Shown piece after piece: positions 11,465-13,495 of a DNA stretch of 49,054 nt. Under the pieces are notes generated by a model. The model had not been told where the DNA came from and did no database searches. It saw nothing but the letters and a program-made list of their open reading frames with translations. Within the stretch, counting starts at the first letter, position 1. Each line of letters starts with the position of its first letter. Source of the stretch: an uncultured Gammaproteobacteria bacterium (GTDB lineage: Bacteria; Pseudomonadota; Gammaproteobacteria; Pseudomonadales; Pseudohongiellaceae); the NCBI GenBank assembly GCA_913058275.1, contig CAJXQP010000002.1:1-49054 (forward strand), in the 5' to 3' direction. A program made the translations under genes and the position numbers.

Positions 11465-13306
11465 CTAATCCTTATGAGGCGCTATAGTTTCTTTCGCTAG
11501 AGTACCCGAAAAGTGCTTCAGCAATTCCTGCACATTTTCATCACTCTCGAAATCGTTGACCATCGCAACATGCTTCTCTTGCTTTACTCTTTGACTGCGC
11601 ATCGCCGGCGTTTCGTTCTTTGCATCTGCTATCTCAATTTGCACTGAGACCTCAAAAGCAAAATAATTGCTCAAGGCTTGAGAAATTTTCGGCAAAAGCT
11701 CTTCGCTGAAAACCGCGCTCTGAGAATGGTCCAAGACGAAGTGTATGCTGTTAGAACCTGCTCGCTGAAAGTCCGAGTTGGCAAGAACGTTCGCGGCTAT
11801 ACCCGTTATTTCGAGTTGAGGGTAGAGACGTAACCAACTCTCTGGGCTCAGTGAATCTAGCGTTATCTCTCCTAGTGCGGCTGCGCTGTCTGGCTTGTCG
11901 CTTTTGTCTCCCTCATTAGGAGCTTCCCGTTTTTCTTGGCTAGCATCGATTACTCTTTTGCTGGGAAATTCAACACTAGCATGTACGGTATCACGAGGCT
12001 GTTGTTCGATCAGATCAGTAGGCACTTCAGTGGATACTTCGGCCTCCTCTTCACTCAAATTTTCAGATTCAGGTTCTTCAAGGTGCGCCGGGGCTACTAT
12101 TTCTGCGGCGGGTTCATTCTTTTTTTTTTCGCTTTCGTTCTCGCTTGTCCCAGCGCCGCCCGATTCATCAGTAATCGAGGAATCCGTACTTACCATAGGC
12201 TCTAGGTTTGTAGGCTCTACATAACTTGGGGAAAATACCAACATGCGAATTAGCAACATTTCGAATGCAGTCCGCACCTCTCCCGAGAGACGTAAATCTT
12301 CCCTGCCCTTGATTCCCATTTGATAATACAGTTGCACATCTTCTGCGCTGATCAAGGAGGCCAGCTCTACTATCTGTGGCATGTCGCCAAAACTGTTGTC
12401 CGCAGCCTTAGGCTCGATCTGCGCAATAGCGACGCGGTGTAATGTGGATAACAGACTATCGAGGGTATGACTATAGTCTGGTGTCTGTTCAGCTATATCG
12501 CGAATGAGTTCGAGAATTGTTGAGACTGATCTCGATGCCATCCCCTTTAACAACTCATACACTTGCTCCTGCGGTGGCACGCCTAGCATCTCGATGACAC
12601 CATCGGTGGCAACCCTCCCCTCGCAATAGGAGATCGCCTGATCCACCAGAGTGAGGGCATCACGCATGCTGCCCGATGCAGCTGCAGCAATCTGCCACAG
12701 CGCTGGCTCTTCGAATTCTAACTCTTCTTTTTCTAACACTGAGCCGAGATATTCAGAAATAAGCTGTGGGCTCAAATTTTTCAAATTGAACTGCAAACAT
12801 CTCGACAAGATAGTAATCGGTAACTTCTGAGGGTCAGTTGTAGCAAACAGAAATTTTACGTGAGGAGGTGGCTCTTCAAGCGTCTTTAAGAGTGCATTGA
12901 AGCTATGATTGGATAGCATATGCACCTCATCGATGAGGTAAACCTTGAAGCGACCTCGGCTTGGTGCATATTGCACGTTGTCGAGAAGCTCTCGTGTGTC
13001 TTCTACCTTGGTGCGGGATGCTGCATCCACTTCGATAAGATCGATGAATCGACCCTCATTAATTTCTGTGCAAGAGCCGCATTTTTCGCAGGGGACTGAG
13101 CGAATTCCTTCCTCGCAATTTAAACACTTCGCAAGTATGCGAGCGAGAGTGGTCTTACCCACACCCCGAGTACCAGTAAATAGGTAGGCATGATGCAGCC
13201 GCTCATTATCTAGTGCATTAATAAGGGATTTGAGAACATGAGCCTGTCCAGCTACTTGAGAGAAGTTACTGGGTCGCCATTTGCGGGCTAGGACTTGATA
13301 GCTCAT
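11465..13306 (-). CDS. dnaX: DNA polymerase III subunits tau and gamma
   Basis: 613 aa; [36 protein letters not shown] zinc module, [10 protein letters not shown]. Confidence 0.97.
12114..12130 (-). promoter_or_regulatory. Candidate programmed -1 frameshift or transcriptional slippage site in dnaX (GA10G followed by a -1-frame TGA)
   Basis: Minus strand GAA AAA AAA AAG AAT GAA; the -1 frame reads AAA GAA TGA, matching the E. coli A AAA AAG AGT GA arrangement. Confidence 0.75.
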
Positions 13307-13387: not shown

Positions 13388-13495
13388 GCCCTTGCCAGCC
13401 ACACCGCGGCACATGAGTCAGCTACTACCGTTGCTCCCTTCCGGGCCTGGCGGGGTTTATAACTTATCATTGCGTGGGGACCGACAAGAGTTACC
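13388..13495 (-). ncRNA. ffs: Signal recognition particle 4.5S RNA, small bacterial type (ends approximate)
   Basis: Minus strand contains GCCAGGCCCGGAAGGGAGCAACGGTAG...TGTGCCGCGGTGTGGCTGGCAAGGG, close to the E. coli 4.5S core CCAGGTCAGGTCCGGAAGGAAGCAGC...GTGTGCCGGGATGTAGCTGGCAGGG; upstream of dnaX. Confidence 0.9.

Follow-up and report, generated by a model that had tools for sequence, protein, structure and literature searches.

The importance of gamma, the short dnaX product, has long been debated in Escherichia coli. In Thermus, RNA polymerase slips on a run of nine A residues (A9) in dnaX, which is accompanied by stops in both alternative frames, and gamma and tau are produced in approximately equal amounts, as described in PMC5009743 and PMC1088944. 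The use of slippage in Thermus was attributed, as a suggestion, to its two tRNA-Lys (PMC5009743). For dnaX genes split into two ORFs and carrying A10, transcriptional realignment was proposed in the GeneTack study (Antonov et al., 2013; PMC3711429), which used the shifting of orthologs in both directions as the criterion for this process. Bacterial RNA polymerase is documented to slip both ways on A or T stretches of such length (PMC6260861).

The window, i.e., the whole stretch of DNA analysed here (49,054 nucleotides), carries dnaX as a single ORF on the minus strand. The genes follow in the order SRP RNA, dnaX, ybaB, recR, and an RNase D-like gene from upstream to downstream, and the bacterial small SRP RNA directly 5' of dnaX occupies positions 13390-13486 on the minus strand (Rfam RF00169, 68.4 bits). 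An Rfam search of dnaX gave no matching element. The features of the gene are as follows:

11465..13306, minus strand: dnaX, tau reading frame, 613 aa, one ORF (TIGR02397, 435.9 bits; Pfam domains)
12236..12604, minus strand: domain III (PF12169), residues 235-357, the last folded domain common to tau and gamma (Pfam)
12120..12129, minus strand: candidate A10 slippage tract, codons 393-396 (read from the sequence; A9-A12 in 97 of 110 family dnaX genes)
12119..12125, minus strand: in-frame A_AAA_AAG heptamer within the tract, a possible ribosomal -1 site or contributor (read from the sequence)
12114..12116, minus strand: -1 frame stop TGA, 3 nt past the run; predicted gamma of 397 aa ending in ...KKKE (read from the sequence)
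12097..12099, minus strand: +1 frame stop TAG, 20 nt past the run; predicted alternative gamma of 402/403 aa ending in ...RMNPPQK (read from the sequence)
12086..12110, minus strand: weak CGCCG/CGGCG stem, probably not functional (-6.1 kcal/mol, z +0.29 vs. shuffles; arms not kept in near relatives)
11483..11854, minus strand: tau domain V (PF12170), residues 485-608, absent from gamma (Pfam)

The A10 site is located between domain III and domain V, as in E. coli. The sense strand of codons 393-398 is GAA AAA AAA AAG AAT GAA, exactly as read in the first-pass annotation, and the gamma end predicted there (a -1 slip leading to ...KKKE and a stop at about codon 397) was confirmed. This TGA could be reached either by a -1 shift on A_AAA_AAG or by one extra A. 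The TAG in the +1 frame was missing from the first-pass annotation; it could be reached by one A fewer or by two extra A's, giving 402 or 403 aa. The run is not a product of chance, since it is the sole A/T run of at least 8 in the whole window and one of only two A10 runs in an assembly of 3.16 Mb, and the 175 kb of dnaX flanks searched in relatives contained one A/T run of at least 9. The second A10 run of the assembly (L342; genome G000, contig C127:2009-2018) lies at the extreme end of an ORF of 387 aa (...PFKKKS, stop); slippage there would change the last residues only or lengthen the protein.

We propose that this one gene would supply two clamp-loader subunits, tau and gamma. RNA polymerase would slip on A10 and release mRNAs with fewer or more A's. 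Messages with A10 (or A13) would be read through to tau of 613 aa, while other run lengths would direct ribosomes into a shifted frame, either -1 (397 aa) or +1 (402/403 aa), and the stops lying 3 and 20 nt beyond A10 would end translation after domain III, yielding gamma without domains IV-V. That dnaX has some programmed tau/gamma output appears close to certain from its sequence. Transcriptional slippage of the Thermus type is probably the main route to gamma, whether or not ribosomes contribute a share, and we put its probability at about 0.7. This mechanism is favoured because the long run (A9+), the stops in both frames, and the absence of ribosomal stimulators together constitute the anatomy of Thermus dnaX. 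From these features, we infer that slippage occurs, with some efficiency, and that gamma is used.

The dnaX sample comprised 80 named loci from genome contigs, 110 from the window's family, about 120 from its order and class, and an E. coli control. Pseudohongiella is among the named near relatives, so that the window's family is probably Pseudohongiellaceae. Runs of A9-A12 were present in 97 of the 110 family genes (A10 in 70), nearly all of which kept the zero frame (tau), and the heptamer A_AAA_AAG was kept in 88 of the 97. These data, together with a -1 stop within 30 nt in all 94 A9+ family genes having tau as one ORF, bear out the conservation in relatives that had been put forward in the first-pass annotation as a check. 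The remaining 13 family genes included two with an A6 heptamer, one with A8, and ten scored as tractless; nine of the latter form one clade, and the tenth is among the fragments ending at a contig edge. The linker diverges across the family while the tract stays at the same place. Outside the tract, 42% of the dnaX Lys codons are AAG.

Stop statistics of the 94 single-ORF family genes were compared with codon shuffles, a null that ignores relatedness. The -1 stop within 30 nt (94/94) was expected by shuffling in 52.8 genes on average (maximum 67), the +1 stop (90/94) in 35.5 (maximum 46), and both stops together (90/94) in 19.7. Both stops were also near in all 32 family representatives with less than 80% core identity. 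On the tree, the position of the +1 stop moved at least 38 times and that of the -1 stop at least 29 times, and both stayed close to the run. The presence of A9+ changed approximately 22 times across the whole tree (FastTree topology). An independent-pairs test provided four supported pairs, all with differences in the expected direction, a number at which significance is out of reach.

Run lengths were bimodal (6-7 vs. 9-12), and the two groups of sites differed in their surroundings. The heptamer class outside the family (n = 55; A6 or A7 with in-frame A_AAA_AAG) was selected for a -1 stop within 18 nt, hence its -1 statistic is no evidence; its +1 stops within 30 nt were at chance level (15/55 vs. 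15.9 in shuffles). Among 32 A9+ sites outside the family with tau as one ORF, 29 had their +1 stop no more than 30 nt away (on average 11.3 in shuffles, maximum 19). An in-frame A_AAA_AAG was missing from 29 A9+ sites, of which 27 had both stops no farther away than 30 nt (on average 7.8 in shuffles, maximum 13). The median upstream anti-Shine-Dalgarno pairing was -9.4 kcal/mol in the heptamer class vs. -2.3 in the family and -2.0 at other A9+ sites. Downstream folding z was -1.47, -0.03, and -0.21, respectively, although this measure is crude, as the proven E. coli stem (-23.2 kcal/mol) has a z of only -0.5. Thus, the A9+ class as a whole showed neither a strong Shine-Dalgarno element nor a structured downstream region, both of which are present in the heptamer class. 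A10 with stops in both frames was also observed in Thiothrix (L065, L079, L081, L084), where T comes after the run and A_AAA_AAG is missing, and in Thalassolituus and Oceanobacter (L058, L066, L072).

In the window gene itself, no strong Shine-Dalgarno-like element was found about 10 nt upstream (-4.7 kcal/mol vs. -7.4 in E. coli), in agreement with the first-pass annotation, which had also described the downstream stem as short and weaker than that of E. coli. The stem arms are present (CGCCG at 12106-12110, CGGCG at 12086-12090), and we rejected this stem as a stimulator for its weakness and for the loss of its arms in near relatives. Consequently, of the E. coli-type arrangement suggested initially, the heptamer with a near -1 stop stands, but the Shine-Dalgarno and stem stimulators are absent from the A9+ class. 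The other option given there, Thermus-like slippage, is favoured by a run of at least 9 and by the conservation of stops in both alternative frames.

Several relatives depart from the common organisation. In L173 (A11), the rest of tau is in the +1 frame and the zero frame leads to gamma; in L185 and L188 (A10), the zero frame likewise leads to gamma, and the rest of tau is in the -1 frame. These orthologs, in which a change in tract length or in the flanks moves tau out of the zero frame, are thus shifted in both directions, which is the mark of transcriptional realignment in PMC3711429; they may be natural variants or assembly errors in single draft genomes. Four other loci, L198, L199, and L202 from family f22 of the order and L182 from the window's family, have a reversed organisation with a zero-frame stop directly after A_AAA_AAG and tau in the -1 frame, so that tau would need a ribosomal -1 frameshift. 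In genome G132 (L100/L020), an in-frame TGA about 50 codons past the tract, with the remaining tau in another frame, is probably an assembly or sequence error.

The tractless clade (L140, L147, L148, L154, L161, L162, L163, L164, and L168; nine genomes, full support) encodes DnaX proteins of 463-499 aa, in which the globular part of domain V is missing and a tail resembling the tau C-terminus is kept. PF12170 was not found in L154 or L161, nor anywhere in the genomes G134, G135, and G098 of this clade. In E. coli, the C-terminal tail of tau is the part contacting Pol III alpha (PMC11470591). Loss of the tract along with most of what gamma lacks is expected if the job of the tract is to make gamma; as a single event, this joint loss is only suggestive.

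The explanations considered here overlap, and the confidences attached to them are not meant to sum to one. If gamma were made by a programmed -1 ribosomal frameshift of the E. coli type on A_AAA_AAG, ending at TGA, with A10 being incidental, the intact heptamer and -1 stop of the window gene and the G that family sites retain behind the run would be accounted for. The tRNA-Lys content also agrees: only tRNA-Lys(UUU), on which the shiftiness of AAG depends in E. coli, was found in relatives (8/8 family genomes examined), and a non-exhaustive set of patterns revealed no CUU isoacceptor in these eight genomes. However, true heptamer sites have both the strong Shine-Dalgarno element and the structured downstream region that A9+ sites lack, and such a frameshift leaves unexplained the floor of 9 in run length, the +1 stops (90/94), the heptamer-less sites, and the flips with tau in the +1 frame, which makes it quite improbable. 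Sliding of ribosomes on the A run of a faithfully copied mRNA, with exit in either frame, would account equally well for both stops and the missing Shine-Dalgarno element and stem; multi-frame, stimulator-free sliding on AAA-rich runs is known from E. coli extracts (PMC4363877). Slippage and sliding cannot be separated by sequence alone. Nevertheless, most demonstrations of sliding used longer AAA arrays, Thermus dnaX sets a transcriptional precedent on A9 (PMC5009743), and the sharp floor at 9 (approximately the length of the RNA-DNA hybrid) and the free choice of phase fit RNA polymerase better, and we regard sliding as improbable.

A tentative possibility, overlapping with transcriptional slippage as the main route, is that both layers operate, i.e., that slippage is supplemented by a degree of -1 frameshifting by ribosomes on the retained A_AAA_AAG. 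G follows the run at 87/94 family sites vs. 12/32 A9+ sites elsewhere, and the heptamer frequency in the family contrasts with about one third at A9+ sites outside it. This retention, along with the intact heptamer in the window gene, looks as if some ribosomal function were preserved and speaks against slippage as the main route; on the other hand, the third Lys codon may persist for protein or codon reasons, and heptamer-less A9+ sites keep both stops just as well. That there is no programmed product at all, the run being a homopolymer that arose by chance or from a Lys-rich linker, or else a phase-variable switch at the DNA level, seems very improbable. The linker is of low complexity, and frame-flipped tracts occur in a few genomes, but the tract is fixed in place across the family despite the divergence of the linker, AAG is common among the other Lys codons of dnaX, stops in both frames are far above the null, and tau is in frame in almost all genomes.

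With transcriptional slippage preferred as the main route, the comparison of families suggests, somewhat less firmly, that a whole gammaproteobacterial family swapped E. coli-type frameshifting for Thermus-type slippage, that similar swaps were repeated in the class, that no second tRNA-Lys was involved, and that a daughter clade then lost the tract and the globular domain V of tau. The idea of two tRNA-Lys as the reason for slippage seems not to apply to the window's family, where UUU alone was found in eight genomes. The mechanism itself is already known, and the proposed exchange of one mechanism for the other across the class is of greater interest; a literature search that was thin on subscription journals turned up no account of slippage-type dnaX from the window's family. 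Independent conserved routes to gamma, via different molecular layers, argue for selection on the short subunit. The related families, in which ribosomal and slippage types are clearly marked in the sequence, offer a natural comparison. The +1 stop is a simple marker that separates the two mechanisms in genomes, in which a product shorter than the main one otherwise easily escapes notice.

Compared with described systems, the window gene resembles dnaX of Thermus thermophilus (Larsen et al., 2000, as cited in PMC5009743 and PMC1088944) in having tau as one ORF, a long A run late in the gene, and stops nearby in both other frames. In Thermus, gamma is translated from length-altered mRNAs; the same origin is proposed for the window dnaX. 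It differs from Thermus in the run (A10 vs. A9), the gammaproteobacterial host, the A_AAA_AAG still embedded in the tract, and the finding of only tRNA-Lys(UUU) in its relatives, whereas Thermus has two tRNA-Lys. With E. coli dnaX, it shares A_AAA_AAG with a -1 stop one codon on and a (predicted) gamma without domains IV-V; unlike E. coli dnaX, it lacks both a strong Shine-Dalgarno element and a strong stem downstream, and it has a run of 10 instead of 6 and an extra +1 stop. In the two-ORF A10 dnaX genes (PMC3711429), the zero frame leads to gamma and slippage is needed for tau, whereas the zero frame of the window dnaX encodes tau; a few of its relatives are of the two-ORF type.
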